Below the pieces are notes generated by a model. The model was not told the origin of the DNA and did no database searches. It worked only from the letters and a program-made list of their open reading frames with translations. Below, piece after piece: positions 7,273 through 50,305 of a stretch of 64,000 nucleotides of DNA. Position 1 is the first letter of the stretch. Each line of letters opens with the position of its first letter. Source of the stretch: Lachnotalea glycerini (GTDB lineage: Bacteria; Bacillota; Clostridia; Lachnospirales; Lachnospiraceae); contig NZ_QICS01000012.1 in the NCBI RefSeq assembly GCF_003201285.1, positions 62,001 to 126,000 on the forward strand. Direction: 5' to 3'. The position numbers and the translations under genes are program-made.

Positions 7273-10200
7273 CTATTCAAAGCGAAACCATTGAAAATCA
7301 AAATTGCTTCCGGGAAGAAATACAAAGGTTACGGTTTGCATACCAAAGACGCGGCGTATGTCAAACGTCTGGACTTCAAAGTGGTCGCTGTGATTTAATT
7401 CTGCAATCTCTATGGAATCAAAGGCTTCATTATGAAAATGTATCTGAATGGTATTTCTGTCTATCGGGCAGCGGCCGCATATAATAACCTTGCCTGCCCC
7501 CCGATTGCCAAAATCCATATTTTTAAATTCAAGTGATACATTATTGCCGATACCCTCAACACAATGAGAAGAAATGGTAAAAGTATCCCCATAAATATGA
7601 TTGGCTTCCTTTACATAGATCTTTTCAAAAGCCTTTTCTTTTTTTAAAAAGCAAAAGCCCTTAATATGAATCTTACGTTCTACTTCAATCGTAAGACTCG
7701 TAATTCCTGATAAGCGTTGATTCAGGATATATGTTGCATCTTGATACACATTCCAGATGGTTTCTTTATCATAAATAAATGAGCCAAGAAGCTTTTCTGT
7801 GTTACGTTTTCCTTCGTAAAAGCGAATGACAGCAGGAGTACTCTCCAATTCAAAAATGGGAAGTGTCAGTGTATCAGAGCCATATTCTCCAAAATCAAGA
7901 TTGTCATAGGTGATGCAAGTTAATGAATCTCTTGACGTAGCCACGCCGCGTTCATTTCCATTACTAATTTCTCCCTCATAGGAGCTATACAGTGAGCCGG
8001 AAATAAATTGATAAGGATTCAAAGTAAGCGAACCTAAACCACTAATCGAAAATTCTAGAGAGGATATGATCTGTGCATGATCTCCTCCGTTTTTGCAGCT
8101 AGCTCGAAGACGAAAATCTCCATCTCCATGAGCGGTGATTTCAACTAAATGTTCTGCATCACATAAAGATTTTACAGAAGCAATTTGAATTGCAACACCA
8201 GAAGCATTCGTTACTTGCCAGTTTATGTCATGATAGGATGCATTCATTGGATAAATTCGAGCTTCGACAATAATCCTTGTATGGTCTTTGGTAAAGGTTT
8301 GTCCGTTTCTTGAAATAAGCTCTATTTTACGAACGGGTATTTCACGCGTAATAATACTTTCAAAGGAAGACAGCAGTGCAGAAGCAACTGGTTTATTCGG
8401 TGAAGCAACAGCATTTAGTTTAAGTTGTCCCATAGGTAAGCCGATTGATGTGACATTTATTGTAATAGATCCGCTTTCCAGAGTGGAAGCAACCATTGCC
8501 AACAGCTTTCCGCTAAACAGTTTTCGGCTAGACCCCTTATAGGAGTCAGAGTCCGTACTGTCACCATTATCCAGACCAACTAAACGGCCTGCTCCCTCCA
8601 CCTTAACATAGACACGGTTGTTTGCATTCTCAACCGGATGACCCTGAGCATCCATCATTCGTATAGTTACAAAGACTAAATCCTCTGCGTTTGCTGTCAT
8701 ACATTGCTTATTTGCAGTTAACTCGATAGTAGCAGCATCATCAAAAGAATATGCATCGTCTGAAGCGATGATTTGGTTGCTTTCATCAAAAGCAACGGCA
8801 TGCAGATGTCCCCTTTCATAAGGAATCTGCCAATCTCCAATTAATTTAGTTCCGATTTGATGCTCAAGATGCTGACAGCCTAAAGAAATATCATTCAAAA
8901 ATAACTCAATCTTAGGAGCATTAGACATAATCCGTACATCAATGAGCTGGTTTGGGTTAAAGTCCCAATAGGTTGAGATGTGGATCATGGGATTTTCCTT
9001 GTAGCTGGTCCACGACGACTGATAAAAGTAAAAGGAATCCTTAGGAAAACCTGCCGTATCAATTTGACCAAAGTAGGAATTTCTTGTGTGATAAGGAGTC
9101 GGCTCTCCGATATAATCAAACCCAGTCCAAATGAATTGTCCCATTGAAAAAGGGGTATCACGTTCACTCAAAATACAAGACTCCATGCTTTTCGCACCCC
9201 AACTTGTGGTGCTGTTTCCAAGGGAAGAACACTGCTCATCATCCTCACATAAAATAGGCTCATTAAGCGGGAAATGGTAAATTCCACGACTTTGCACCAG
9301 TGAAGAGGTTTCACTGCCATAAATAGCCCAATCAGGATACTTTTTGTGATGCTCTTGATATAGCTTTTCTGTATAGTTGTAGCCTGCCAGTTTTACAATA
9401 TTGGCACATTTTCTCGCATTTTCCCAAGTCATATAATTTGAAGCGATAGTAACGTACGCATTATTACGACTGTCATGCTTTTTCACCTCATCATACAATG
9501 CCTGTGTGATTTCCATCCCATGCTCATCGGCATGAGTATCATAAATTTCATTTCCAATTGACCACATAATGACACTTGGATGATTTCGGTCGCGACGAAT
9601 CCAGCTTTTTACGTCTTTTACACAGTGCTCCTTGAAAAAACGTGCATAATCGTAAGCTGTTTTAGAACGCTCCCACATATCAAACACTTCATCAATTACC
9701 AGAAATCCCATTTCATCAGTCAGTGCCAAAAGCTCAGGAGCAGGCATATTATGCGAAGTCCGAATTGCATTGGCTCCCATTTGCTTTAAAAGCAACAACT
9801 GTCTTTTGGCAGCCGTTTTATGAAAAGCACTTCCAAGCGCACCTAAATCATGATGCTGACAGACTCCATTTAATTTCGTATGTACCCCATTTAAGAAAAA
9901 ACCCTGATTACAGTCAAATGTAATACTTCGAAAGCCAAAACGATTGTTTTCGGTATCTACAACAACATCATCGATGAGTAATTCAGAACGAAGGGTATAA
10001 AGATAGGGCTTTTCTAAGGTCCAAGGAATGATGTCACGAATCAATATCTCAACATCAGAGCTTATGCCGGACATAATGAGCTTCTCGTTTGCATCAAGCA
10101 GAGTATGTCGAACCGTTCCTATTGCATTTTGACTGATTTCATGAGAAACAATGAGAGAATAGTCCTCTTGTTTTTTATTGGTAGAAATATAAATGCCATT

Positions 10201-12037: not shown

Positions 12038-12994
12038 ATGGGAAAAGATAAAGTATCAATAACAGAAAGTAAGATAAAACACAAGAAGTTGTTCTCGTTG
12101 CTCAGACATGTAAAAAAGGAATGGAAGCTATATTCTTTTTTAGTTCTTCCAATTGCTTATTACATCATATTTAAATACATACCAATGGCAGGAAATATTA
12201 TTGCATTTCGAAAATATAAGGGAGGTTCAAACATATTTGGAAGCACTTGGGTAGGGCTTCGATATTTTAATCAATTTCTTCAGGATGAATCATTTTGGAA
12301 AGCTTTCGAAAATACCCTTCGACTGAGTATATCTTATATTGCGGTAAGATTTCCGGCCACTTTAATTTTTGCTTTGCTATTGAATGAAATTAAAACATTA
12401 GCTGCTAAAAAGTTTGTACAGACTGTCAGTTATCTACCCCATTTTATATCTTTAGTAGTCGTTTGTGGTATGGTAAAGGAAATTGTTTCCCTGAATGGAC
12501 CAATTAATAGTTTAATAGCAGGAATGGGATTTGAAAAAATGGCATTTATTTCTTTGCCTGAGAGTTTTTCCACTATTTATATATCTTCGGGTGTCTGGCA
12601 GGCATTGGGGTGGGGAACCATTCTATACCTTACGGCTATGACAAATATTAACATGGAATTGTATGAGGCATCGGCCATTGATGGGGCAGGAAAGCTTAAA
12701 CAGGCTTTACATATTACGATACCGGGTATCATGCCTACCATTATGACATTATTGATTCTGGATGTCGGAGGAATAATGACATCTACAAATATGCAAAAGA
12801 TTTTACTCCTATATAATCCACTTACACAGGAAAAAGCAGATATTATTGGCACTTATGTTTATAGAATGGGTATAACAGGAGGAAACTTCTCCTATGCGAC
12901 TGCGGTTGGACTATTTGAGGGAATTATTGGGTTGATCTTAGTAACAAGCGCCAATACGCTATCTAAGAAATTTACAGAGAGCAGTTTATGGTAG
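12038..12994 (+). CDS. ABC transporter permease, LplB type (oligosaccharide import)
   Basis: The 318-residue membrane protein has a cytoplasmic N-terminus of about 35 residues and six predicted helices, the first at YSFLVLPIAYYIIFKYIP. The EAA loop is EASAIDGAGKLKQALHI near residue 210. The sequence GNIIAFRKYKGGSNIFGS after the first helix is typical of the LplB branch, which imports complex oligosaccharides rather than simple disaccharides. It heads an operon with a partner permease, binding lipoprotein, GH3 and GH67 enzymes. In Paenibacillus, equivalent permeases belong to aldouronate-utilisation clusters with GH67, so aldouronates are the likely cargo. ATG follows AAGGGGAG. Confidence 0.9.
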   Translation: MGKDKVSITESKIKHKKLFSLLRHVKKEWKLYSFLVLPIAYYIIFKYIPMAGNIIAFRKYKGGSNIFGSTWVGLRYFNQFLQDESFWKAFENTLRLSISYIAVRFPATLIFALLLNEIKTLAAKKFVQTVSYLPHFISLVVVCGMVKEIVSLNGPINSLIAGMGFEKMAFISLPESFSTIYISSGVWQALGWGTILYLTAMTNINMELYEASAIDGAGKLKQALHITIPGIMPTIMTLLILDVGGIMTSTNMQKILLLYNPLTQEKADIIGTYVYRMGITGGNFSYATAVGLFEGIIGLILVTSANTLSKKFTESSLW

Positions 12995-39533: not shown

Positions 39534-41678
39534 ATGGATATTATAATAAAATTAGCTACCGAACTGGAAGTCAAAAAGTGGCAGGTGGAAGCAGCAGTAA
39601 AGCTGATTGATGAAGGCAATACAATTCCATTTATTTCAAGATACAGAAAAGAAGCAACAGGTACTTTAAATGATGAAGTTCTAAGAAATTTAAACGATAG
39701 ATTAATTTATCTTCGCAATCTAGAAGAGAAAAAGGTACAGGTTCTGGCTACCATAGAAGAACAGGGAAAACTTACAGAAGAGTTAAAGAGTCAAATTCTT
39801 GGTGCTGAAACATTGGTCATTGTAGAAGATTTATATCGCCCATATAGACCAAAGAGGAGAACAAGGGCAACCATAGCCAAAGAAAAAGGACTGGAACCAT
39901 TGGCCAATATCATAATGCTTGGTAATACTAAAAATTCAATCGAAAAAGAAGCAGAAGCATTTATCGCCCCAGATAAGGAAGTCAATACAATTTTGGATGC
40001 TATAGATGGTGCAAAGGACATTTTGGCTGAGTATATATCAGATGAAGCGGACTATAGAATTTATATTCGAAATATAACTGAGAAAAAAGGAATCTTAACT
40101 TCAACGGCAAAAAACGAAAGTGCAGAATCAGTATTTGAAATGTATTATAACTTTCAAGAACCGATTGTAAAATTAGCTGGTCATAGAATTTTAGCTCTAA
40201 ACAGAGGGGAAAGTGAAAAACTGCTTAATGTTAAAATTGAGGCGCCAGAGGAAGATATTCTTCGCTTTTTAAAAAAGCAGATTATCAAGTTAGAAAATGA
40301 GAAAACAAATTCGATATTGGAAGAAATCATTCAGGACAGTTATAAGAGATTAATTGCACCTGCGATTGAGCGTGAGATTCGAAATGAATTGACAGAAAAT
40401 GCAGAAGACGGAGCAATCAAGGTTTTTGGTAAGAACTTAGAGCAGCTTTTAATGCAGCCGCCAATTATTGGCAAGGTGGTGCTTGGATGGGATCCGGCCT
40501 TTCGAACAGGCTGTAAACTTGCTGTAGTAGATGCAACGGGTAAGGTGCTTGATACTACAGTTATTTTTCCAACTGCTCCACAAAACAAAGTAAAAGAAGC
40601 GAAAGCTACTGTAAAAAATCTAATTGAAAAGTATAATATATCATTGATTTCAGTGGGAAACGGAACTGCATCCAGAGAATCCGAAATGGTTATAGTAGAT
40701 ATGATAAAAGAAATAAAAATGAATATTCAGTACGTCATAGTAAATGAGGCAGGAGCCTCTGTGTATTCAGCGAGTAAGCTGGCAACAGAAGAGTTTCCGA
40801 ATTTTGATGTAGGACAAAGAAGTGCTGCTTCCATTGCAAGAAGGTTACAAGATCCCTTGGCAGAGCTTGTCAAAATTGATCCTAAATCCATCGGAGTTGG
40901 CCAATATCAGCACGATATGAATCAAAAGAAGCTTAGCGAGGCGCTTGGAGCAGTGGTAGAGGATACAGTAAACAAAGTGGGAGTAGACTTAAACACGGCA
41001 TCCGCTTCCCTTCTGGAATATATTTCAGGAATCAGCAAGGTTATTGCGAAGAATATTGTAATTTACCGGGAAGAGAACGGGCGTTTTGAAGATAGAAAGC
41101 AACTGCTTAAAGTAGCAAAGTTAGGACCCAAAGCATACGAACAGTGTGCAGGATTTATGAGGATTCAAGGAGGCAAGAATCCATTGGATGCCACAAGTGT
41201 ACATCCAGAAAGCTATGAAGCCGCAAAGGCTTTACTTGAGAACTTAGGTTATTCATTAGAGGACATTTCAAAAGGAAGCCTGAATCATTTAACGAAAAAG
41301 ATATCAGATTACAAGAAAACAGCACAAACATTGGGAATCGGAGAGATTACGTTGCAGGATATTGTGAAAGAATTAGAAAAGCCTGCGAGAGATCCAAGAG
41401 ATGAAATGCCAAAGCCAATTCTTAGAACGGACGTGTTGGAAATGAAAGATTTAACACCGGGAATGACTTTAAAGGGAACGGTTAGAAATGTAATAGATTT
41501 TGGAGCATTTATAGATATTGGAGTTCATCAAGATGGTTTAGTTCATATTTCACAAATGACAGAAAAATATATCAAACACCCACTCGAGGTGGTTAGCGTC
41601 GGAGATATCGTAGATGTAATGGTTATGAGCGTAGATTTAGCAAAAAAAAGAATACAACTGACAATGAAAGTACAGTAA
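39534..41678 (+). CDS. tex: Tex-family RNA-binding transcriptional accessory protein
   Basis: The 714-residue protein has the Tex layout: N-terminal helical domain with EGNTIPFISRYRKEATGTLN near residue 27, a YqgF/RNase H-like domain (about 318-445; GWDPAFRTGCKLAVVD), helix-hairpin-helix motifs (about 490-560; DLNTASASLLEYISGI) and a C-terminal S1 RNA-binding domain (about 640-712; GMTLKGTVRNVIDFGAFID). It is essentially full length. The start ATG 39534 matches the family's N-terminus but lies 17 bp from the best ribosome site; that site instead serves an overlapping 7-codon frame at 39523-39546, so translation may be coupled. A terminator follows. Confidence 0.95.
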   Translation: MDIIIKLATELEVKKWQVEAAVKLIDEGNTIPFISRYRKEATGTLNDEVLRNLNDRLIYLRNLEEKKVQVLATIEEQGKLTEELKSQILGAETLVIVEDLYRPYRPKRRTRATIAKEKGLEPLANIIMLGNTKNSIEKEAEAFIAPDKEVNTILDAIDGAKDILAEYISDEADYRIYIRNITEKKGILTSTAKNESAESVFEMYYNFQEPIVKLAGHRILALNRGESEKLLNVKIEAPEEDILRFLKKQIIKLENEKTNSILEEIIQDSYKRLIAPAIEREIRNELTENAEDGAIKVFGKNLEQLLMQPPIIGKVVLGWDPAFRTGCKLAVVDATGKVLDTTVIFPTAPQNKVKEAKATVKNLIEKYNISLISVGNGTASRESEMVIVDMIKEIKMNIQYVIVNEAGASVYSASKLATEEFPNFDVGQRSAASIARRLQDPLAELVKIDPKSIGVGQYQHDMNQKKLSEALGAVVEDTVNKVGVDLNTASASLLEYISGISKVIAKNIVIYREENGRFEDRKQLLKVAKLGPKAYEQCAGFMRIQGGKNPLDATSVHPESYEAAKALLENLGYSLEDISKGSLNHLTKKISDYKKTAQTLGIGEITLQDIVKELEKPARDPRDEMPKPILRTDVLEMKDLTPGMTLKGTVRNVIDFGAFIDIGVHQDGLVHISQMTEKYIKHPLEVVSVGDIVDVMVMSVDLAKKRIQLTMKVQ

Positions 41679-41688
41679 TACACATAGT

Positions 41689-41708
41689 CCCTCTTCGGAG
41701 GGGTTTTT
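41689..41708 (+). terminator. Terminator after tex
   Basis: CCCTC and GAGGG form a stem closed by a TTCG tetraloop, followed by GTTTTT. Confidence 0.85.
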
Positions 41709-41996
41709 ATTTGTTACAACTTAGAAATACATTTAACGGCAAATATTTAGCAATTTACAAAATTTGGAAGTAGTTTACAAAATGGAAAAGTCAAAATACA
41801 GTTCACCACTTGTTAAAACATGTTTATAAAAATAGTCCATTGGTGCTTTTAAGATGTCCATTTACGCTAAAATCATCAATTATTTCAATAATATGATATA
41901 TTTAAATCAGAAATAAATTATTTTTAAATGCTTCATAATTGTAAATAAAATATATTATAATTTAATGCATAATTTTTTGAGGAGGGGAAGAGAAGA
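41709..41996. promoter_or_regulatory. Control region of the peptide cluster
   Basis: This AT-rich stretch has no gene. TTTACAAAAT occurs at 41754-41763 and 41774-41783, exactly 20 bp apart. A TATAAT at 41956-41961 with a poor TTCATA -35 (18-bp spacer) is the best promoter candidate, and GAGGAGGGGAAGAG just before the M50 gene is a very strong ribosome site. An ACAGTT motif at 41798 resembles one LytTR half-site, too weak to call alone. Confidence 0.45.
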
Positions 41997-42899
41997 ATGA
42001 ATATTAAATATTTATTGAGTATTATAATGTGCAAGGTTAATATTATTCCAGATTTTCCACCTAGAGTAAAATTAATAGACAATATTATTTCTGACGACGC
42101 GTTACAATATGAAACAAAATTAAATAGCACAGCGTTAGCTGTATTTAAACTAGTAGATGGAAAAAACAATTTATTAGATATAGTGAAAGATATGAACTTT
42201 CAATATGGATGTAAAGATGACAGAGTTTTGAATGATGTAAATCAATTAATTCTTGATGCAAACAAAAGAAATATACTCAATTTGAAAATAGAATCAAATA
42301 ATTTATTATATAAAAATATTGCACGATTGATTTTTAATATTCTATATAGAAGAGTAGAACGCTACGACATACTAGACAGTAACTTCTTTATGATATTTGT
42401 TCAATTATGTAAGATTATAATAAGCAAGCTGAAAGGATTAGTTATTATATTGGATTTAGCAATATTATTTATATTGTATTTATCTTATGATTTTAATCAA
42501 ACAATATATGAATATGCATGGAATATCTTTGCTTATGTTAATTTATTTATAATAGGTACTGTTACGAGTATTTCTATGCATGAAACGTTACATGCCTACT
42601 ATTTTAGAAAAATTTCCAATCAAACCAAGAGTGGTTTCTTTGTAATTAGAGGGATGATGATGTCTTTTAAACGAAGAAAAGATCAACAAATTTCAGGTTT
42701 GTGGGTAGAACTTTCAGGCCCATTCATTACATTTGTAATAGGTGCTGCCGGTTATGTAAGTACATATTTTCTCATACCAAAAGAATTCTATTTGTATTTT
42801 TATATATTCTTTTTTTCTTATTTAATACAAATAGTCAACTTACTTCCATTTTCAGGAGATGGAAAAAATATATTGCTTCGCATTCTGTTTAGTAAATAA
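41997..42899 (+). CDS. PqqD-like domain fused to M50 intramembrane metalloprotease
   Basis: The 300-residue protein has a PqqD-like winged-helix domain at its N-terminus (about 15-100; LNSTALAVFKLVDGKNNLLD and DVNQLILDANKRNILNL), a fold used as a leader-binding RiPP recognition element. The rest has about four to five membrane helices. The zinc site HETLH is at His195-His199 in SMHETLHAYYF, and the second motif LLPFSGDGKN supplies Asp288, as in M50 site-2 proteases. The protein therefore looks like a protease that recognises a peptide leader and cuts in or near the membrane. The precursor-like peptide gene follows within 60 bp. The substrate assignment is inference. Codon use is notably AT-rich. 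Confidence 0.8.
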   Translation: MNIKYLLSIIMCKVNIIPDFPPRVKLIDNIISDDALQYETKLNSTALAVFKLVDGKNNLLDIVKDMNFQYGCKDDRVLNDVNQLILDANKRNILNLKIESNNLLYKNIARLIFNILYRRVERYDILDSNFFMIFVQLCKIIISKLKGLVIILDLAILFILYLSYDFNQTIYEYAWNIFAYVNLFIIGTVTSISMHETLHAYYFRKISNQTKSGFFVIRGMMMSFKRRKDQQISGLWVELSGPFITFVIGAAGYVSTYFLIPKEFYLYFYIFFFSYLIQIVNLLPFSGDGKNILLRILFSK

Positions 42900-42904
42900 T
42901 AGTT

Positions 42905-42927
42905 AATAAAAACATTATGTTTTTATT
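42905..42927 (+). terminator. Short hairpin between protease and peptide genes
   Basis: AATAAAAACA and TGTTTTTATT form a perfect 10-bp stem with a 3-nt loop; the T run is inside the 3' arm. It may act as a weak terminator or processing site. Confidence 0.4.
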
Positions 42928-42956
42928 ATATAAAAATTATGAGGGGAGGAAAACTC

Positions 42957-43169
42957 ATGGAAAACTATATTGCACCTAGTATGTCAGCAGATTTGGCGGT
43001 TACCGAAGATTTTGTTGTATGGTACGTTATAGCAATTGCTATATTAGTGGCACTTGCAGCAACTATTGTTGCAGCTTGTGCACTATTCTGTATTGCTAAG
43101 GGAAAAACCTTTAGCGGTCAATGGTCATACACAGATGGCGGAGGTAGCGTGAAAATCGGATGTCAATAG
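42957..43169 (+). CDS. Putative membrane-helix precursor peptide of RiPP-like system
   Basis: This 70-residue peptide has a short acidic N-terminal leader (MENYIAPSMSADLAVTED), a strongly hydrophobic helix (about 20-47, with Cys41 and Cys45 near its end) and a 23-residue polar tail (KGKTFSGQWSYTD, then GGGSVKIGCQ) with Cys69 next to the end. Size, leader and Gly/Cys-rich tail fit a bacteriocin or signalling precursor; I recognise no named family. Neighbours are a PqqD-M50 protease, an ABC exporter and disulfide proteins. A disulfide between Cys45 or Cys41 and Cys69 is an attractive possibility. I start at ATG 42957, after GAGGGGAGGAAAA; the ATG at 42939 precedes this site. A 13-bp hairpin follows, typical after highly expressed precursor genes. 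Confidence 0.7.
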   Translation: MENYIAPSMSADLAVTEDFVVWYVIAIAILVALAATIVAACALFCIAKGKTFSGQWSYTDGGGSVKIGCQ

Positions 43170-43192
43170 CATACGATAGCTAATATGAATGA

Positions 43193-43225
43193 TTGGTGAA
43201 AACTATTATTTTTAGTTTTCACCAA
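43193..43225 (+). terminator. Perfect 13-bp hairpin after precursor peptide gene
   Basis: TTGGTGAAAACTA (43193-43205) pairs perfectly with TAGTTTTCACCAA (43213-43225), loop of 7 nt, no T run after the stem. Likely stabilises the precursor mRNA or attenuates reading into the exporter genes. Confidence 0.6.
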
Positions 43226-43301
43226 CATTTATATTATAGTATAGTTGCATACAATCCTTATATTTGAAAAATCTTTATATAATTTGTAGGAAAGGTATAC
43301 T

Positions 43302-44048
43302 ATGTTTAAGATAGACAATATTTCAAAACAATATTCCAATGGATTTTGGGGTATTAAAAATTTTACGTTAGAGTTATCAGAGGGAGAAATAATATGTTTA
43401 TCGGGACCAAACGGTTCTGGAAAAACTACCCTTATTAACTCTATTTTTGGAATTATTAATCCTACTTCTGGTAAAGCATATTTAGATGAATTTGAGAATG
43501 GGACAATTCAATTTAAAAGAAATGTTTTTTATGTACCAGACGAATTACTCTTAATTGAAGCATTGACGGGAAAAGAATATATAGATTTTGTAAGTAAAAT
43601 ATATATTGATATCAAGGAAGACTTTAAAAATAATTTAGTAAATTTATTTCATATTGATACATATTTAAATGAACCAATAAAAACATATTCTCATGGAATG
43701 AAAAAGAAGATACAGTTAATCACTGCTTTTATGGTAAAAAGCAAAGCAATGATACTTGACGAACCTTACAGAGGTTTGGATGTAGAAGCAATTATTATTC
43801 TGAAAAAGTTAATTAGAAAGTATGTGAGCAATGGAGGCAGTGCTATTATATCTTCACATGATTTAGTTTCAGCCGAACAATTATGTGACAGAATGGCAAT
43901 TATATCTTGTGGTAGTTTATTAGAGCTTGGTACAATTGAAGATTTGAAATACAGATATCAAACAGATGATATTGATGAAGTATTTTTAAAATGTTCAATC
44001 AAACAGGATAGAGGTGAAGATATTGAGAAGCTCATTAATTCTCTTTAA
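43302..44048 (+). CDS. ABC transporter ATP-binding protein of the peptide cluster
   Basis: The 248-residue ATPase has Walker A GPNGSGKTT (35-43, Lys41), the signature-like SHGMKKK around residue 132, Walker B MILDEP (Asp153-Glu154) and the switch His in IISSHDL. The sequence most resembles single-domain ATPases that pair with ABC-2 type permeases for peptide export or immunity. The stop overlaps the next gene, the permease, by about 26 bp, so they are coupled. Export of, or self-protection against, the upstream peptide is inferred. The ATG follows AGGAAAGG. Confidence 0.92.
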   Translation: MFKIDNISKQYSNGFWGIKNFTLELSEGEIICLSGPNGSGKTTLINSIFGIINPTSGKAYLDEFENGTIQFKRNVFYVPDELLLIEALTGKEYIDFVSKIYIDIKEDFKNNLVNLFHIDTYLNEPIKTYSHGMKKKIQLITAFMVKSKAMILDEPYRGLDVEAIIILKKLIRKYVSNGGSAIISSHDLVSAEQLCDRMAIISCGSLLELGTIEDLKYRYQTDDIDEVFLKCSIKQDRGEDIEKLINSL

Positions 44049-45492
44049 TTTAATATTAAAAATCTGGAAGAAAAGTTTAGCAGGCTTTCTTGACACTACA
44101 CAAAAAAAAGTTCAGATTGGAATACTATTCATACTATTCTTTGGTATATGTTTTTTTACGGGCTATCTAATAAGTGGTGAAATACTAACTTTATTTTTAA
44201 ACGGAGATTCAAGAGCTCTTTATTTATTATTATTATCAGAATTAATAACAATTTCGTTTATTACAGTTATGTTTTTTATATTACTAAGATGTCTGACTCC
44301 GGAACAAAATACAATTACTAGAATATTAATATGTTTTCCAATAAAAGAAATTGAAAAAAAAATTGGTTATTATTTACCTGTTATTATAAATATTATTTTT
44401 AGTTCTTTTTTATTTGTTTTTATTATATATATACCAGCTATGTTAGTTAATAAAATCGACCTAATGATTATTTTTGGCTTTATTTTTTGTTTATTATTAC
44501 AATCAATAATAATTACCTTATTTCTATTTAGTATATTTAATTTGCTTATGTTTATAGCTTCAAAAATAAGGATTCCATATTACAAAAATATAATCACAAC
44601 AATCATAGTGTTTGGTATTGTATGGTATCATATTCAATTTTTTGAGGTATATGAAAATATGCTTCAAAGTTATTCCGTTTATAAATTTGAATTGATTACG
44701 ATCACTGCTCCATTTATAACATTATTTTCTTCACAGTTACCTAAAATAGAATGTAATTATTTGATTAATGTTGGATTCATAGTCTCAATTATTCTAATAT
44801 TTTTTATAGTATCTAGCTTAAGTGAGAAAATTGAGGAGGAAAGGTTATTTAAAATTTTTAAGTTTATAAAATTTCATAAAAATAAAATAGTTAATATAGC
44901 TATTAAAGAAATAAAAATATTAGCACGCAACGAAGAAATTGTAATGTTTAATATTTTAGCATGTATTATTGTGATTTTAGTAAGAAAAGTATTAAAGCTT
45001 AACATATCAAATAGTGGAATATGCATGTTTACAGGTGCATTAAGTTCTTTTATATCTATTTATTCATATGGAATGGAAGAGAATTTATTACCGTTGTACA
45101 AAAACCTGGGAATAAGTTACAAGCAATATACTTATGGAAAGCTTATGGGTAACATAATAGTTTCACTTACGATATACATTATATTAAGTACTATACTATT
45201 TACTTATCCTGTTAATGTATTTAATATTTTACTTGGTCTGATAACAAGTTGCACAGGAAGTATAATATTATATTTCATAGGATTATTGTTTCCTCTTACT
45301 TCAGAGAAACCATTTATGCAAGGGTTAATTTCGATCGGAATAATTTTTGGTATGATTCCAATATTATTTATTATGAGCAAATTGTTTCAAATAAATAAAT
45401 ATATTTTATATGTTATAATATTTTTTTTAATGGTAACAATCTATTTTATGATTTTTAAGATTACCAAGTTGAAATGGAATAAAGAAAGCTAA
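44023..45492 (+). CDS. Large ABC permease of the peptide cluster
   Basis: The 489-residue protein is highly hydrophobic, with about twelve predicted helices in two groups separated by a soluble segment near residues 265-300 (SEKIEEERLFKIFKFIKF). It has no recognisable motif beyond ABC-2-type character and shares no close similarity I can name. It overlaps the ATPase gene, which defines it as the partner membrane subunit. I prefer the TTG at 44023, 6 bp after GAGGTG; a GTG at 44014 in the same frame is the alternative. Base composition is the most AT-rich of the window. Confidence 0.75.
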   Translation: MRSSLILFNLILKIWKKSLAGFLDTTQKKVQIGILFILFFGICFFTGYLISGEILTLFLNGDSRALYLLLLSELITISFITVMFFILLRCLTPEQNTITRILICFPIKEIEKKIGYYLPVIINIIFSSFLFVFIIYIPAMLVNKIDLMIIFGFIFCLLLQSIIITLFLFSIFNLLMFIASKIRIPYYKNIITTIIVFGIVWYHIQFFEVYENMLQSYSVYKFELITITAPFITLFSSQLPKIECNYLINVGFIVSIILIFFIVSSLSEKIEEERLFKIFKFIKFHKNKIVNIAIKEIKILARNEEIVMFNILACIIVILVRKVLKLNISNSGICMFTGALSSFISIYSYGMEENLLPLYKNLGISYKQYTYGKLMGNIIVSLTIYIILSTILFTYPVNVFNILLGLITSCTGSIILYFIGLLFPLTSEKPFMQGLISIGIIFGMIPILFIMSKLFQINKYILYVIIFFLMVTIYFMIFKITKLKWNKES

Positions 45493-45505
45493 TATGGAGG
45501 TATAT

Positions 45506-45823
45506 ATGAAAGATAAAAAAAATATTTTGTTAACTGTTTTGTCAGGTTATGGCATGGCTTTTGGAATTGTAATTTGTAGTACGTTTGCTCTAATTATATG
45601 TTCGGCAGCTTATGCATTTTTTGCTGAGACAACTATCACGTTTCCATTTAACAGCTTTAGCATAGTTGGAGGAGATGTAGGAGGAGTGACAGGGTTAGAA
45701 ATTAATTATCGAAATTCCTTGTTTTCCATATTGTCTATTGTATTTGTAATATTAGGCTTTGTTTTTTCAATGATAAAATTTTTGTTAGCAAAGTATAAAA
45801 TAGAAAATAGTAAAGAAAATTGA
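45506..45823 (+). CDS. Small two-helix membrane protein of the peptide cluster
   Basis: The 105-residue protein has two membrane helices (about 10-37 and 70-93) joined by a loop of about 30 residues on one side of the membrane, containing NSFSIVGGDVGGVTGLE. I recognise no family. Plausible roles are immunity protein, transporter accessory subunit or a second processed peptide; the Gly-rich loop loosely recalls the tail of the 70-residue peptide, but without Cys. ATG 45506 follows TGGAGG by 5 bp; the in-frame ATG at 45494 overlaps the ribosome site. It sits 13 bp after the permease in the same operon. Confidence 0.65.
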   Translation: MKDKKNILLTVLSGYGMAFGIVICSTFALIICSAAYAFFAETTITFPFNSFSIVGGDVGGVTGLEINYRNSLFSILSIVFVILGFVFSMIKFLLAKYKIENSKEN

Positions 45824-45834
45824 GGTTTATAAAT

Positions 45835-46374
45835 ATGAAAAAGAAAGTCATTTTAATACTAATACTTATTATTTTGCTTTCTGTTTTTACTAATTTATAT
45901 CATGTTTATTGTAATTCGGGCAATGTGGTTGCTTTATCCAGTGAAGGTATTAAATTTGGAAGTGATAGTGCAAAAATTAAAATATATTTTTATACTAGCT
46001 TCAGTTGCAGTAAATGTAAACAGTTAAGTGCTAATATAAGAGAAGCTGCAAAGGGCTTACTTGATAGTAATGAAGTTCAAATAATTTATAAAATAACGGA
46101 TGATTATGTATACAATTGGAGTAACGATAAGTTTTATGACTATGATTTTATAACAAATGGTTACGAAAATTGGATGGATTATGCAACAATAGATGAATCT
46201 GAATCACTAAGTGCAGCTGAGCTTGAAAAGAGAAAAGAAATAAAAGGAACAATAGAACAAGAAATGGAACTAAATAAAATAGAAGGTGTTCCGGTTTTTT
46301 TTGTGAATAATGAAAAATTTAATGGTTTATATTCGACTGAAGAAATTAGTAAAATATTATCTAAGGAAGAGTAG
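45835..46374 (+). CDS. Secreted DsbA/thioredoxin-fold disulfide protein
   Basis: The 179-residue protein has a signal anchor (KKKVILILILIILLSVF) and an extracytoplasmic thioredoxin fold with active site FSCSKCKQ (Cys58, Cys61) and the cis-proline loop EGVPVFFVN near residue 150. Between them is a helical insertion, as in DsbA-type thioredoxin_4 proteins, so it probably makes or exchanges disulfides outside the cell. It is in the same operon as a thioredoxin-CcdA membrane protein that could keep it in the right redox state. The obvious local substrate is the Cys-containing peptide. I start at ATG 45835 after TGAGG; TTG 45820 overlaps that site. Confidence 0.82.
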   Translation: MKKKVILILILIILLSVFTNLYHVYCNSGNVVALSSEGIKFGSDSAKIKIYFYTSFSCSKCKQLSANIREAAKGLLDSNEVQIIYKITDDYVYNWSNDKFYDYDFITNGYENWMDYATIDESESLSAAELEKRKEIKGTIEQEMELNKIEGVPVFFVNNEKFNGLYSTEEISKILSKEE

Positions 46375-46410
46375 AGTAAAATGTAATGTAGATAAAAGGA
46401 GTATTATAAC

Positions 46411-47550
46411 ATGAGTACTAGAAAAATTATGATAATATTGGCTATCTCAATATGTACTCTTTTATATTTAAAATCAGATGTACAAGCAGAAAATATTGTA
46501 AAGAGTGTTTATTTTTATTCTCCAACTTGCTCTGATTGCATGATGATTGAGAAAGCATTTGCAAAAATCAGCAATAGCAATGTCCTTTATTTAAATGTAT
46601 CGGATACGTCTAATCTGAATTTATTCTTCAGTTTTTGTGATACGTATCACATCGATGAGAAAGAGCGATCGGTTCCCATTCTATTTGTAGGTGAAACGGT
46701 TTATTCCAATGCGGAGAATATTATACAATCAATTGAAAATGGTGTTGTTGATAAAAATACAGAGAATTTATTGGTAGATATCAATGATATTAAGGCAAAA
46801 GGGAATTTTACGCAGTCAGATGATACCAAACTAACAATCGTTTACTTATTTATTGCTGGTTTGTTAGATGGCTTTAATCCCTGTGCGGTTGCGATGTTGC
46901 TTTTGCTTATTTCACTGTTAGGCTTTGTCAATGACAAGAAAAAGATTATAAAACTTAGTATTAGCTTTATTAGCGGAATCTTTATTACATATTACTTGAT
47001 TGGAACAACATTGTACTCCTTTGTATCCAAGATAGATTTTAGTATTGTTAATTTTGTCATTAAATACTTTATATTAGTGTTATGTGCTGTTTTATTTGTA
47101 TTGAATTTAATAGATGCAATAAATTCATGCAAAATGAAACATCAAAAGGTGGTATTGCAATTGCCAAAGAGAATTAAAAAATTCAATAAACATCTTATGC
47201 AGAAAGTAGTGTCTGTTCAAAATAGAAGATTTGTTTATTTCATATATTTTGGGTTGGGCGTAGCAATTTCCTTTACTGAGTTTATGTGTACTGGACAAAT
47301 TTATCTGCCTGTTATTTTACTGATGTCACAAACTCAAAATATATCGTCAATAAGAATATGTTTTAACTTTTTTATTTATAACACTGCCTTTGTCTTACCC
47401 TTGATAATAATCAGTATCATAGCAATTAATAAAGATAAGGTAATAAGTATAAGCAGTATTTTTGTTGAACGAATGTATCTGATTAAAATTTTAAATGCGA
47501 TATTTTATTTTATTTTAGGAAGTCTCGTTCTATACTTATTTATTTTATAA
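46411..47550 (+). CDS. Thioredoxin domain fused to CcdA/DsbD-like membrane protein
   Basis: The 379-residue protein has a signal peptide (1-about 26), an extracytoplasmic thioredoxin-like domain with SPTCSDCMM (Cys40, Cys43) and a VPILF cis-Pro loop, then six or so membrane helices of the CcdA/DsbD type starting near residue 145. The membrane part has the paired cysteines of the family: Cys158 in DGFNPCAV and Cys293 in TEFMCTGQIYLP. Such proteins carry reducing equivalents across the membrane. Having the soluble domain N-terminal is unlike classical DsbD order (alpha-beta-gamma) but suits a two-domain version. It is preceded by a good GGAG site. Confidence 0.85.
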   Translation: MSTRKIMIILAISICTLLYLKSDVQAENIVKSVYFYSPTCSDCMMIEKAFAKISNSNVLYLNVSDTSNLNLFFSFCDTYHIDEKERSVPILFVGETVYSNAENIIQSIENGVVDKNTENLLVDINDIKAKGNFTQSDDTKLTIVYLFIAGLLDGFNPCAVAMLLLLISLLGFVNDKKKIIKLSISFISGIFITYYLIGTTLYSFVSKIDFSIVNFVIKYFILVLCAVLFVLNLIDAINSCKMKHQKVVLQLPKRIKKFNKHLMQKVVSVQNRRFVYFIYFGLGVAISFTEFMCTGQIYLPVILLMSQTQNISSIRICFNFFIYNTAFVLPLIIISIIAINKDKVISISSIFVERMYLIKILNAIFYFILGSLVLYLFIL

Positions 47551-47569
47551 AATAATACGGAGTGATTGT

Positions 47570-47863
47570 ATGAATCAAGAAGTTATAATAATGTACGATA
47601 ATCAGATAATTTATAAAGGGAAAATAGAAAATATACCAATTAAAGAACATGTAATAATAGAACAAAGCATAATTCAATTTGGAGATGATGATCCTTGCAT
47701 CATACATAGGTCATATGTAATTAAGAAAATATTAATCGAGTTTTTAAAAGAAATAAATAGTCATATGAATGGGAAAAAGCTAATTCTTAATCATATTAAT
47801 AAAGAAATGATAGAGCAATTAGATTTGGAGCATGCTTACAATGCTGTAATTGAATTTTGTTAA
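47570..47863 (+). CDS. Hypothetical 97-residue protein before cysteine desulfurase
   Basis: I do not recognise this protein. It has no signal peptide or membrane helix, is predicted to be a mixed alpha-beta cytosolic domain, and ends in Cys (AVIEFC). It contains DDDPCIIHRSYVIKKILIEF in the middle. A GGAG site precedes the ATG and it ends 25 bp before the desulfurase start, in the same operon. A C-terminal or central Cys next to a desulfurase could make it a sulfur acceptor, but nothing else supports that. Confidence 0.6.
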   Translation: MNQEVIIMYDNQIIYKGKIENIPIKEHVIIEQSIIQFGDDDPCIIHRSYVIKKILIEFLKEINSHMNGKKLILNHINKEMIEQLDLEHAYNAVIEFC

Positions 47864-47888
47864 GAAAAACAGTGAGAAAAGAGGAAAT

Positions 47889-49040
47889 ATGAGAGAAATA
47901 TATCTGGATAATAGTGCTACTACTTATGTAAGAGAGGAAGTGCTTAAACATATGTTACCGTATTTTAAAGATAATTACGGAAACCCTTCTTCTATTTATA
48001 AAATAGGTTTAAGCAATCAAAAATGCATCAACGTTTGTCGTCAGCAAATAGCAAAATTATATCACTGCGCATCCGCTAAAGAAATATACTTCACCTCTTG
48101 TGGCACAGAATCTAATAATTGGGCATTAAAGGCTGTGTGTCTCCAAAATAAAAGTGGTCACGTCATAATATCCTCAATTGAACATAGTTCAATCATAGAA
48201 TCTTCTTATTTTCTCAAGCAATTAGGATTTGATGTAACATACTTATCCGTGAACAAGAATGGTTTGATCAATCTGCAAGAACTAGAAAGAAGCATTCGTA
48301 AGGATACAATTTTAGTATCTGTGATGTATGTAAACAATGAAGTAGGGGTTATAGAACCAATCAAAAAAATCGCAGATATATGTAAAAAATACAATGTTTT
48401 ACTACATACGGATGCGGTACAGGCAGCTCCACATTTAAAAATTAATGTGCAGGAATTGGGAATTGACATGATGAGTATATCAGGACATAAGGTATATGCT
48501 CCGAAAGGGGTTGGGCTGCTTTATGTAAAGAAAAATACTCCAATGATACCGTTGATTCATGGTGGACATCAGGAAAACCAAATGAGAGGCGGGACAGAAA
48601 ATATTGCAAGTATAGTAGGTCTTACAAAAGGATTAGAATTGTGCAATGAAGAACTTAAAATCAATACAGTAAAATTTGAAAGGCTTCGAACACGTTTGAT
48701 ACGCGGTTTAACAGAGCGTAATTATGACTTTATTGAGATAGGTAAAGATAATGATAATAAATTAGATTCTATCATAAATATCTGTTTTAAAAATATTAAT
48801 TCTAAAACCTTAGCAATTTTATTAGGTGAAGAAGAGATATATGTATCAACAGGAAGTGCTTGCAATTCAGGTAGCGTAGTGCCATCACATGTGTTACAGG
48901 CTTTAAAAATACCAGATAGTTATATCAATGGTGCAATAAGAGTTTCGTTGGGGAAGGATACAAGTGAGCAGGAGATAGATCTGTTTATTGATACATTAAG
49001 TAATATATTTAAGAACAAGCTTAGTTTTATACAAGAATAA
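47889..49040 (+). CDS. Cysteine desulfurase, NifS/IscS type
   Basis: The 383-residue PLP enzyme takes sulfur from cysteine as a persulfide. It begins YLDNSATTYVREEVL, has the PLP lysine in SISGHKVYAPKG (Lys201), HTDAVQ, and the active-site loop STGSACNSG with catalytic Cys325. The loop and length match group I NifS-like enzymes. No IscU, thiI or mnmA gene is adjacent, so the acceptor is unclear. It is the last gene of the peptide cluster, so it may supply sulfur for modification of the peptide or for a cluster protein; alternatively it is a housekeeping NifS placed there by chance. I start at ATG 47889 after AGAGGAAAT; the upstream ATG at 47850 overlaps the preceding gene. Confidence 0.92.
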   Translation: MREIYLDNSATTYVREEVLKHMLPYFKDNYGNPSSIYKIGLSNQKCINVCRQQIAKLYHCASAKEIYFTSCGTESNNWALKAVCLQNKSGHVIISSIEHSSIIESSYFLKQLGFDVTYLSVNKNGLINLQELERSIRKDTILVSVMYVNNEVGVIEPIKKIADICKKYNVLLHTDAVQAAPHLKINVQELGIDMMSISGHKVYAPKGVGLLYVKKNTPMIPLIHGGHQENQMRGGTENIASIVGLTKGLELCNEELKINTVKFERLRTRLIRGLTERNYDFIEIGKDNDNKLDSIINICFKNINSKTLAILLGEEEIYVSTGSACNSGSVVPSHVLQALKIPDSYINGAIRVSLGKDTSEQEIDLFIDTLSNIFKNKLSFIQE

Positions 49041-49052
49041 TGCGGTTGTTTG

Positions 49053-49090
49053 AAAGGAGAGGTAGACTTTAAGTAAACCGCTCCTTTTGT
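49053..49090 (+). terminator. Terminator at end of peptide cluster
   Basis: AAAGGAG (49053-49059) pairs with CTCCTTT (49081-49087), followed by TG; an alternative GCGGTT/AACCGC stem (49042-49047 with 49076-49081) overlaps it. Together they are likely to stop the cluster transcript. Confidence 0.55.
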
Positions 49091-49471
49091 TATAAAGTAT
49101 ATGCGAAAACTTATGAGTATTAGTCAGTAAGTACTATTTAAAACAGAACAAATATGTTCTAAAATATAAAAAATGTATCAACAAGCTGATGGATTTAATT
49201 CTTGGGAGAGTTTAACTGGTTTCATAATAGTTGTATTAAAGAGTTTAAATTTTGTAGTACTGGATAGGTATATGAAGATGGATCAATGTTCCATTCAAAT
49301 TAATTAGATGCGTTACCAAAATATTTCAATCGGGATAAATAAAATGAATAGAAAAGATATCAAATATTGTCGAATAATGACGAATAAGAAATATCTTTTC
49401 TTTGTAAATAGAGTTAAAAGACTGATATCGTGCATATAAAGGAAAAGCATTAAATAATAATCTTATAACAG
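49091..49471. other. Intergenic region upstream of agr-like genes
   Basis: This region has no convincing gene. It contains an inverted repeat GAAAAGATAT (49351-49360) with ATATCTTTTC (49391-49400), whose 30-bp interior carries CGAATAA twice (TCGAATAATG and ACGAATAAG). This could be an operator or a small RNA hairpin. The rest is AT-rich sequence without visible structure. Confidence 0.45.
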
Positions 49472-49500
49472 TTGAAAAAATTACCAAATAATGGTATAAT
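49472..49500 (+). promoter_or_regulatory. Predicted promoter of agr-like genes
   Basis: TTGAAA (49472-49477), 17-bp spacer and consensus TATAAT (49495-49500), about 100 bp before the agrB-like start. An ACAGTTGAA at 49469-49477 resembles an agr-type LytTR half-site and overlaps the -35 box. Confidence 0.65.
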
Positions 49501-49603
49501 TTAATTGTTTATTTTAGTAGAAATAACGATAAGATGCCATGAAGCTGTATATGCTATTAGACATGCGTAAAGCTAAATCGGGGAAAGGAGGTACATAGAT
49601 TTA

Positions 49604-50305
49604 ATGTACAAGCTAATTGTGAAGAAAGTTTTCCCAGGCGTCATTAATCAAGCGGAAAACGAGGAAGAAAAGGAGGTGGTTATATATGGTTTAGAAGTAA
49701 TGTTGTCTAGCATGGTTAATTTAGCTGCAATGTTACTCATTGGTTACGTTAGTAATAATTTAATAGGAACCGTCATTTATTTAATATGTTTTTGTACAAT
49801 TCGCATTATGGCAGGAGGGTATCATGCCAATACTTATTTAGCATGCTTTTTATGTTCGATTATTTCATATTCTTTCATAATAGGAATTAATCCCTATATT
49901 ACTGAAAAATATAATATGATATTAATTATTTTGGCAGCGATATCTTACATCATCACATTAGGGCTGGCACCTATCTTAAATGGCAAGCGCACATTTTCTA
50001 CAGAAGAAATCCAAAAAGCCAAGAAAAAAGTCAGATTTATATTAACTACAGAACTATTTGTTACAATAGGATTGTACCAGATAAATTATAAATTATACAA
50101 ATTCGCAATTTTTGCGATCATTACAGAAGGAGTGATTGAAATAATGGGTAAAATTAAATATTCAGATATTAATAAGAAGGATTTGTTAAAAAAAATGATG
50201 AAAATATCAATGGGTGCTGCTCTATTATCAGGCTGGCTTCCAAGCTTTGCTACTTTTCATGAGCCTGAAATGCCACAAGCTTTAAAAGATAAACTGGAGA
50301 AATAG
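49604..50305 (+). CDS. agrB: AgrB-like peptide processing membrane protein continuous with AgrD-like pro-peptide
   Basis: The 233-residue frame begins with an AgrB domain (about 1-180), a membrane cysteine endopeptidase that cuts and cyclises the AgrD autoinducer pro-peptide. Catalytic residues are His74 and Cys81 in AGGYHANTYLACF, seven apart as in Staphylococcus AgrB. The frame does not stop after the last helix but continues through IKYSDINKKDLLKKMMK and WLPSFATFHEPEMPQALK, an AgrD-like pro-peptide: amphipathic helix, core SFATF and the acidic EPEMP recognition tail. Ser214 takes the usual Cys position, predicting a Ser lactone. Either this is a true AgrB-AgrD fusion or AgrD is translated from an internal start. 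The ATG lies 12 bp after AAAGGAGGT. Confidence 0.88.
   Translation: MYKLIVKKVFPGVINQAENEEEKEVVIYGLEVMLSSMVNLAAMLLIGYVSNNLIGTVIYLICFCTIRIMAGGYHANTYLACFLCSIISYSFIIGINPYITEKYNMILIILAAISYIITLGLAPILNGKRTFSTEEIQKAKKKVRFILTTELFVTIGLYQINYKLYKFAIFAIITEGVIEIMGKIKYSDINKKDLLKKMMKISMGAALLSGWLPSFATFHEPEMPQALKDKLEK
50144..50305 (+). CDS. agrD: AgrD-like autoinducer pro-peptide, in-frame internal start within agrB
   Basis: The last 53 codons of the agrB-like frame form an AgrD-type pro-peptide. An in-frame ATG at 50144 has AAGGAG 11 bp upstream, giving a peptide that starts MGKIKYSDINKKDLLKKMMK. The amphipathic N-terminal helix, a 5-residue ring core SFATF (residues 34-38) and the tail HEPEMPQALKDKLEK match AgrD layout, with the tail cut site predicted before His. 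Serine in place of the ring cysteine is known in Staphylococcus intermedius group pheromones. Whether it is made separately, only as a fusion, or both, is unresolved. Confidence 0.6.
   Translation: MGKIKYSDINKKDLLKKMMKISMGAALLSGWLPSFATFHEPEMPQALKDKLEK

Follow-up and report, generated by a model that had tools for sequence, protein, structure and literature searches.

A conserved cassette of Lachnotalea glycerini and other Bacillota links a PqqD/M50 protease to a short two-cysteine peptide and probably exports it

What is made by a gene block that joins a short peptide to an intramembrane-type protease with a leader-binding domain and to an exporter, and that carries no classic modifying enzyme? 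The question is raised by nine genes on one strand at positions 41997-49040 of a stretch of 64,000 nucleotides from Lachnotalea glycerini (contig NZ_QICS01000012.1, positions 62,001 to 126,000 of the forward strand), the whole of which is called here the window. The cassette probably makes, trims and exports one small membrane peptide, a helix-hairpin closed by a disulfide and most likely a bacteriocin. The cut would be guided by a RiPP recognition element (RRE; RiPP, ribosomally synthesized and post-translationally modified peptide), and in the window species the cassette is possibly under agr control.

Besides the window species, related cassettes were found in Peptostreptococcaceae and in a Bacillus-like family, so labelled from its gene content; the three groups are only distantly related to one another. 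In all 34 readable relatives, comprising 27 Bacillus-family genomes, four other genome loci and three plasmid records, the precursor and the PqqD/M50 gene share one cassette, with the ATPase and permease genes of an ATP-binding cassette (ABC) transporter between them, and among these no M50 homologue without a nearby peptide was seen. A first-pass annotation of the window had proposed the peptide, protease and transporter genes as a unit, to be checked by such co-occurrence, and they are indeed a conserved one. Because it recurs in other families, the core gene set goes beyond chance. The M50 and the peptide profiles matched the same six of 71 genomes in a Peptostreptococcaceae sample, and the same three of 398, the window genome among them, in a sample of the phylum. 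G841, where M50 and peptide lie on separate short contigs, was excluded from the cassette count, and L005, whose permease and DsbA frames are annotated as broken, was counted for gene presence only.

Within the Bacillus-like family, the M50 gene occurs in 27 of 80 genomes, and in 24 of 44 within one genus. Peptide, ATPase and permease genes lie upstream of it, in that order, in 27 of 27 cassettes. A small membrane protein is encoded 3' of the M50 gene in 25 of them; it was unrecognised by BLAST in L105 and L106, the former having a frame of matching size at the expected place. A protein search of plasmids yielded three Paraclostridium bifermentans records (29-30% identity) with the order peptide, ATPase, permease, PqqD/M50, 94-residue protein, thioredoxin and DUF3267. 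This order was also found at four further loci recovered with the permease profile, from an uncultured Peptostreptococcaceae bacterium, Romboutsia sedimentorum, Paraclostridium ghonii and Romboutsia lituseburensis. The window differs in having its PqqD/M50 gene first. No relatives were found in genome contigs by the M50 profile, or in viral contigs by the M50 protein, the M50 profile or the ATPase profile; phage records gave one short match of PqqD length (E 0.01) and no peptide match. A class-level search gave, beyond the window genome, matches to the PqqD part only, and protein P0007 had one distant match among 60 other relatives (G067, 27%).

The block and its borders in the window contain the following features.

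41686-41705, plus strand: intrinsic-terminator-like hairpin behind the preceding tex-like gene (39534-41678), the left neighbour of the block
41835-41864, plus strand: LytTR-type direct repeat upstream of the cassette, GTCCATTGG-N12-GTCCATTTA, with a 21-bp period
41871-49583, plus strand: approximate extent of the block missing from two same-genus genomes, by synteny comparison
41997-42899, plus strand: PqqD (RRE-like) domain fused to an M50 site-2-type membrane protease, with HETLH and NLLPFxxDG motifs
42957-43169, plus strand: 70-residue precursor peptide with Y..P motif, hydrophobic helix, predicted beta-hairpin tail and conserved Cys45 and Cys69
43193-43225, plus strand: 13-bp hairpin between the peptide and ATPase genes, a possible partial terminator (whole-gap folding z -6.4)
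43302-44048, plus strand: ABC transporter ATPase, core gene (Pfam ABC_tran)
44023-45492, plus strand: ABC permease of about 489 residues, core gene, with no convincing Pfam match
45506-45823, plus strand: 105-residue membrane protein with two hydrophobic stretches, core by position, a candidate immunity or accessory protein
45835-46374, plus strand: DsbA/thioredoxin-like extracytoplasmic protein with a CSKC motif (Pfam Thioredoxin_4)
46411-47550, plus strand: thioredoxin-like and CcdA/DsbD-type membrane protein (DsbD_TM, E 0.0093, below cut-off)
47570-47863, plus strand: 97-residue protein of no known domain, with no Pfam match
47889-49040, plus strand: NifS/IscS-type cysteine desulfurase (Pfam Aminotran_5)

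Sequence and profile searches agreed with the first-pass annotation on the eight genes that it had listed, their strand and their coordinates, and on its statement that radical-SAM, LanB/LanM and YcaO enzymes are missing, none being matched among the nine window proteins. Its list was incomplete, since the 105-residue core gene had been overlooked. It had also counted the thioredoxin-CcdA, 97-residue and desulfurase genes as part of the set, and these were found in no other cassette inspected; the NifS matches there are weak (22-29%) and lie outside the cassette. The desulfurase scores above the curated cut-off for NF002806 (307.5 versus 304) and below that for the NifS model (451.1 versus 530.75). 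It is an extra copy, four more full-length NifS-like genes being present in the same genome, and it was dropped as a core gene. Among eight permeases tested, just two weak Pfam matches were obtained (E 0.02-0.03), in one member each. The AT-richness ascribed to the block stands for most of its genes (GC 0.23-0.29 against 0.338 for the whole window), the peptide (0.41) and NifS (0.33) being exceptions, and 49-53 kb of the window is likewise AT-rich. Of the terminators said to bound it, only the upstream one is borne out; a terminator scan detected none 3' of the NifS gene.

The assignment of the protease rests on conserved motifs, because the Pfam Peptidase_M50 match of the window protein is weak (E 0.046). 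HExxH (H-E-H) and LLPFxxDG are invariant in 33 of 33 proteases. The window PqqD match barely reaches the Pfam gathering score (23.7 bits, cut-off 23.4); at E 0.01, PqqD was matched in 32 of the 33 proteins and Peptidase_M50 in four. NF041824, the NCBI model for the daptide intramembrane protease, matched 19 of 33 at E 0.001 (best 9.7e-9), the window protease itself scoring 13.8 bits, far under the curated cut-off of 300. When compared with the sequences of solved structures, the protease profile matched PqqC/D chains (best E 2.5e-7) and, more weakly, PqqD and lasso B1 chains, and the window protease alone had no match. The best matches in a structure search with the AlphaFold model of the M50 protein included PqqD and lasso B1 chains (5e-3 to 6e-2); no site-2 protease was among them, the membrane half of the model being poor. 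A predicted RRE/PqqD-fold domain linked to a short conserved precursor is what marks RRE-dependent RiPP-like systems, and the cassette appears to have this arrangement, on fold evidence that is weak.

The precursor alignment comprised 24 peptides. It drew on 14 of the 25 Bacillus-family loci fetched (L104 twice) and left aside L005, the second cassette described below and the other 11 Bacillus-family loci, whose peptides have both cysteines too. All 24 share Y..P near the N-terminus, followed by a hydrophobic helix, and have two cysteines in common, the invariant columns being Y4, P7, C45, F52, G54, I67 and C69. The residue before the motif proline is A, S or K, the first 20 residues are net negative in every precursor, and 17 of the 24 have no cysteine beyond the conserved two. 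The AlphaFold model of the peptide (mean predicted local distance difference test score, pLDDT, 68.5) shows a helix at 10-47 and strands at 52-59 and 62-69. Strong folding of the stretch that separates the peptide gene from the ATPase gene was obtained for the window and for eight of ten Bacillus-family gaps (z at or below -1.5; the other two -0.4 and +0.7); the same folding test gave no strong fold in four of five Peptostreptococcaceae gaps or in the second cassette. Database matches to the peptide were weak and below cut-off, both in Pfam and in NCBIfam, where six of 24 matched an uncharacterised model (best E 0.0047). Solved-structure sequences gave four insignificant matches, and six peptide strings were absent from the open-licence papers searched.

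When Peptostreptococcaceae and Bacillus representatives are compared, the peptides are 54-67% identical, the ATPases 47-48%, the permeases 23-25%, the M50 proteins 25-28% and the small membrane proteins 23-33%. The small membrane protein of the window keeps the same position as its counterparts, at 20-34% in the alignment. Between the window and its relatives, the ATPase (43-48%) exceeds the peptide (33-42%). That the peptide is so strongly conserved suggests that its target or receptor is conserved too.

Three side observations concern precursor genes of relatives. Two tandem precursor genes lie in one cassette at L104:3419-3997, with an FtsX-type ABC transporter in front. On a Paraclostridium plasmid (L003, about 7340-7700), an inverted repeat, GACTTAGGTGT / ACACCTAAGTC, was seen by eye on both sides of the peptide gene. 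In the Peptostreptococcaceae sample, G814:C315:327-467 has a weak peptide match (E 0.005) with three stop codons, possibly a decayed precursor gene.

From these data we infer a likely mechanism. The precursor would consist of a short N-terminal recognition motif, Y..P, followed by a hydrophobic helix and a beta-hairpin tail. The PqqD domain would bind the motif and present the peptide to the M50 protease, by which the leader would be removed; by analogy with daptides, in which the leader motif closes with ...EAP, the cut would most likely fall just after the conserved proline, leaving about 60-65 residues. The ABC transporter would then carry the peptide across or out of the membrane. Outside the cell, the two invariant cysteines, one at the helix end and one near the C-terminus, would be joined by a disulfide, through the DsbA-like protein of the cassette where present and presumably through the cell's own enzymes in Bacillus. 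The producer would be protected by the small membrane protein, the ABC transporter or both, and the product would most likely act as a bacteriocin on the membranes of related bacteria. In the window species, the cassette, lying behind a LytTR-type agr site, may be switched on with cell density.

A DsbA-like gene is present in the window and Peptostreptococcaceae cassettes, and in L105 a VKOR gene (8311-8772, E 2.3e-20) lies directly 3' of the DsbA-like gene, the two forming a disulfide-forming pair. The two invariant cysteines, together with the DsbA-like genes and the VKOR gene at one locus, suggest a single disulfide, with a dedicated enzyme to form it in hosts that may have none of their own. 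By itself, a disulfide is not usually regarded as a RiPP modification.

A second, diverged cassette was found in the same genome (L010:5832-9905). It encodes an 86-residue peptide with cysteines at the helix end and near the C-terminus and with no Y..P motif, an ATPase, a permease, an M50 protein with HELGH, a thioredoxin-like protein and a 97-residue membrane protein. The M50 protein of this cassette had no PqqD match, and the joint absence of PqqD match and Y..P motif is as expected if one binds the other. A subtilase-like gene was seen by eye after this cassette.

The loci L009, L011 and L012 were set aside as relatives because of their radical-SAM genes. L009:6710-11795, also in the window's own genome and near a contig end, contains an ABC transporter, a signal-peptidase-like protein, a standalone PqqD and two radical-SAM genes (all recognised by eye except PqqD); this cluster is a different system. 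At L011:7331-12541, radical-SAM and PqqD genes lie between two inverted copies of one insertion sequence (IS) element. Just beyond them (12326-12541, minus strand) is a peptide with a ...NYQSPSI... start, resembling the N-terminal motif of the cassette precursors, and a hydrophobic helix with WVWCDPYW at its end.

How did the cassette reach its place in the window? In two same-genus genomes (G001 and G002), agrBD follows the tex-like gene and the nine genes are missing; the two are immediate neighbours in G002 and are separated by other small genes in G001. Similarity to these genomes resumes at about 49584, to the right of the block. The M50 gene was found in one of 397 genomes sampled from the family, probably Lachnospiraceae, and that one is the window's own. 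Since two same-genus genomes lack the block here and one in 397 family genomes has the M50 gene, a recent insertion of transferred DNA in the window species, as suspected in the first-pass annotation, is supported.

The repeat at 41835-41864 is of the type that LytTR regulators bind, and the first gene of the cassette starts 162 bp downstream of it. The 36 bp at 41835-41870 are 86% identical to a native intergenic stretch of G002 at the syntenic place, and both G002 and G001 have a similar repeat just upstream of agrBD. No LytTR-type repeat was found before the window's own agrBD; genes for a GHKL kinase and a LytTR regulator belong to this agr locus. The case for an agr-type site is made by synteny, not by count. 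Possibly the repeat is a native agr-type site that stayed behind in front of the cassette when this was inserted, a captured promoter, and control of the cassette by agr and cell density is possible in the window species. Two of the three plasmid stretches have LytTR and histidine-kinase genes about 3.5-5.5 kb downstream of the cassette. As a separate observation on the agr locus, the C-terminal end of AgrB at 49604-50305 reads on into AgrD-like sequence, an apparent AgrB-AgrD fusion (TIGR04223, below cut-off, E 0.053). The fusion occurs in both same-genus genomes too, with ...PCVLVFHE..., the window having ...PSFATFHEP... with Ser in place of Cys.

Several points weigh against a leader-cut, disulfide-closed bacteriocin under agr control. 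The window peptide has a third cysteine (41), and in the leader part of six Clostridia peptides there are one or two additional cysteines. The peptide model is of low confidence, with about 61 in the tail, and the M50 model (mean pLDDT 52.5) is of poor quality in the membrane half, the N-terminal domain being the exception. The structure search with the latter gave no matches at E 0.001 or below, and a methyltransferase with a winged-helix part was among its best matches. The small membrane protein of the window has no BLAST similarity to its counterpart, a DsbA-like gene was found in only one of 27 Bacillus-family cassettes (L105), and the repeat is not rare by count, with three in the window at three mismatches or fewer and a mean of 1.36 after shuffling. 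Bacteriocins often diversify quickly. The peptide is more conserved than ATPase, permease and protease between Peptostreptococcaceae and Bacillus, which would also suit a signal. Finally, an intramembrane protease might cut inside the helix and release a tail of 25-30 residues instead.

This last point leads to a rather unlikely alternative, in which the product is a pheromone and not a toxin: the M50 protease would cut inside the helix and the short tail would leave through the ABC transporter, in the way that linear pheromones are handled by Eep and EcsAB/PptAB. In the excerpt consulted, the pairing of a membrane metalloprotease and an ABC exporter is a known route for peptide signals (PMC7157817), and both the strong conservation of the peptide and the position of the cassette behind an agr-type repeat would fit. 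However, conservation of the helix equals or exceeds that of the tail, and a part to be thrown away would have no need of it. A tail closed by a disulfide, in cassettes that carry DsbA genes and once VKOR, is unlike linear pheromones. No receptor gene common to the cassettes was seen, flanking frames differing among nine loci in a comparison that was not a systematic search.

Lower still stands the possibility, a doubtful one, that the product is a daptide-type or otherwise modified RiPP, with modifying enzymes encoded elsewhere in the genome or with the NifS-like enzyme and the 97-residue protein acting on it, for example by sulfur insertion. The relation of the protease to daptide proteases through NF041824 speaks for it, as does the position of the NifS and 97-residue genes in the same block and direction, although neither was seen in another cassette and the genome has other NifS-like genes. 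A test of flanking genes (eight proteins at seven loci) gave a luciferase-like gene (L098, same strand) and an iron-type alcohol dehydrogenase (Fe-ADH) gene (L104, opposite strand), of families also present in daptide clusters, but at one locus each. Frames for pyridoxal phosphate (PLP) enzymes lie upstream on the opposite strand at L053 and six other Bacillus loci; the PLP gene encodes an enzyme of Cys/Met metabolism. A C-terminal Thr is found in none of the 24 precursors, and the nine window proteins include no oxidative decarboxylase, aminotransferase of the daptide kind or methyltransferase.

Very improbable is a quality-control or stress module degrading a membrane peptide, the short gene encoding an unsecreted substrate or inhibitor of the protease: small membrane proteins can regulate M50 proteases, as BofA and SpoIVFA do with SpoIVFB in the source excerpt, but the PqqD domain, exporter and extracytoplasmic redox genes point outward, and the hairpin after the short gene would suit a highly expressed precursor in the window and eight of ten Bacillus-family gaps, a point weakened by its absence from the Peptostreptococcaceae and second-cassette gaps named above.

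The conserved cassette is thus real, and related peptide systems processed by an RRE and site-2 protease (S2P) are already known. We consider the chances about evenly balanced that the cassettes form a separate, old and widespread Bacillota family of ribosomal membrane peptides with a single-disulfide helix and hairpin, their own RRE-guided intramembrane protease and no tailoring enzyme, whose member in the window captured agr quorum-sensing control. If so, the RRE/S2P leader-removal step of daptides would exist free of their chemistry, a disulfide could replace tailoring, and RRE-guided leader removal would be separable from modification. A complete module of peptide production would have been little noticed, although 24 of the 44 species sampled in one Bacillus-like genus carry it, as do Paraclostridium plasmids. 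It would offer a minimal five-gene system for studying how an intramembrane protease receives its substrate from an RRE, as well as a new candidate class of membrane-active peptides. No title or abstract opening in the open-licence literature searched describes the cassette; the papers themselves were not read.

Among known systems, the pediocin-like class II bacteriocins have a disulfide, a hairpin and a helix, a YGNGV motif and a double-glycine leader. Cassette peptides resemble them in being small, in having no tailoring enzymes and in the predicted combination of disulfide, hairpin and helix, with the order of helix and hairpin reversed; the YGNGV motif and the double-glycine leader were not found in the cassette precursors compared. 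Eep and EcsAB/PptAB are general genes that are not known to come with an RRE. They are alike in that a membrane metalloprotease and an ABC exporter act on small peptides, and differ in using lipoprotein leaders as substrate according to the excerpt available (PMC7157817), whereas protease and exporter are linked to one precursor in the cassette.

The epipeptide operon yydFGHIJ of B. subtilis likewise joins a short precursor to a membrane protease and a two-gene ABC transporter, and its product kills by membrane permeabilisation, as excerpted from PMC7026026. It has a radical-SAM epimerase, an enzyme unmatched in the window cassette and in the annotated plasmid cassettes, and the same excerpt mentions neither a disulfide nor an RRE.

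The closest comparison is with daptides, and the earlier claim that no described system resembles the block is not supported in view of them. What led to the discovery of daptide clusters was the fusion of an N-terminal RRE with an intramembrane site-2 protease; MpaP removes the leader. The clusters also contain ABC transporters, and their short precursors carry ELExMEAP, an aliphatic stretch and a Thr at the C-terminus (excerpts of PMC10036551); they are known from Bacillota as well (excerpts of PMC10036551 and PMC12338566). The fusion by which they were found is present in the cassette, and with MpaP as precedent it is not itself new; ABC transporter genes and a short precursor with an aliphatic stretch are likewise shared. 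The leader motif ELExMEAP ends in AP, and the cassette shares just Y..P with A, S or K before the proline. DapB, oxidative decarboxylase, aminotransferase and methyltransferase, described for daptides in these excerpts, are not in the cassette, nor is the C-terminal Thr that is invariant there. No daptide modifying enzyme was found among the nine window proteins or annotated inside the plasmid cassettes, and the Fe-ADH, luciferase-like and PLP genes lie only outside cassettes. The cassette has, on its side, two invariant cysteines and a predicted hairpin, mostly one precursor, a core order constant in Peptostreptococcaceae and Bacillus (protease first in the window), DsbA in Clostridia cassettes and one Bacillus-family cassette, and VKOR in one. 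It is not a daptide by the published definition; in its likely manner of working, it resembles the leader-removal part of the daptide pathway.

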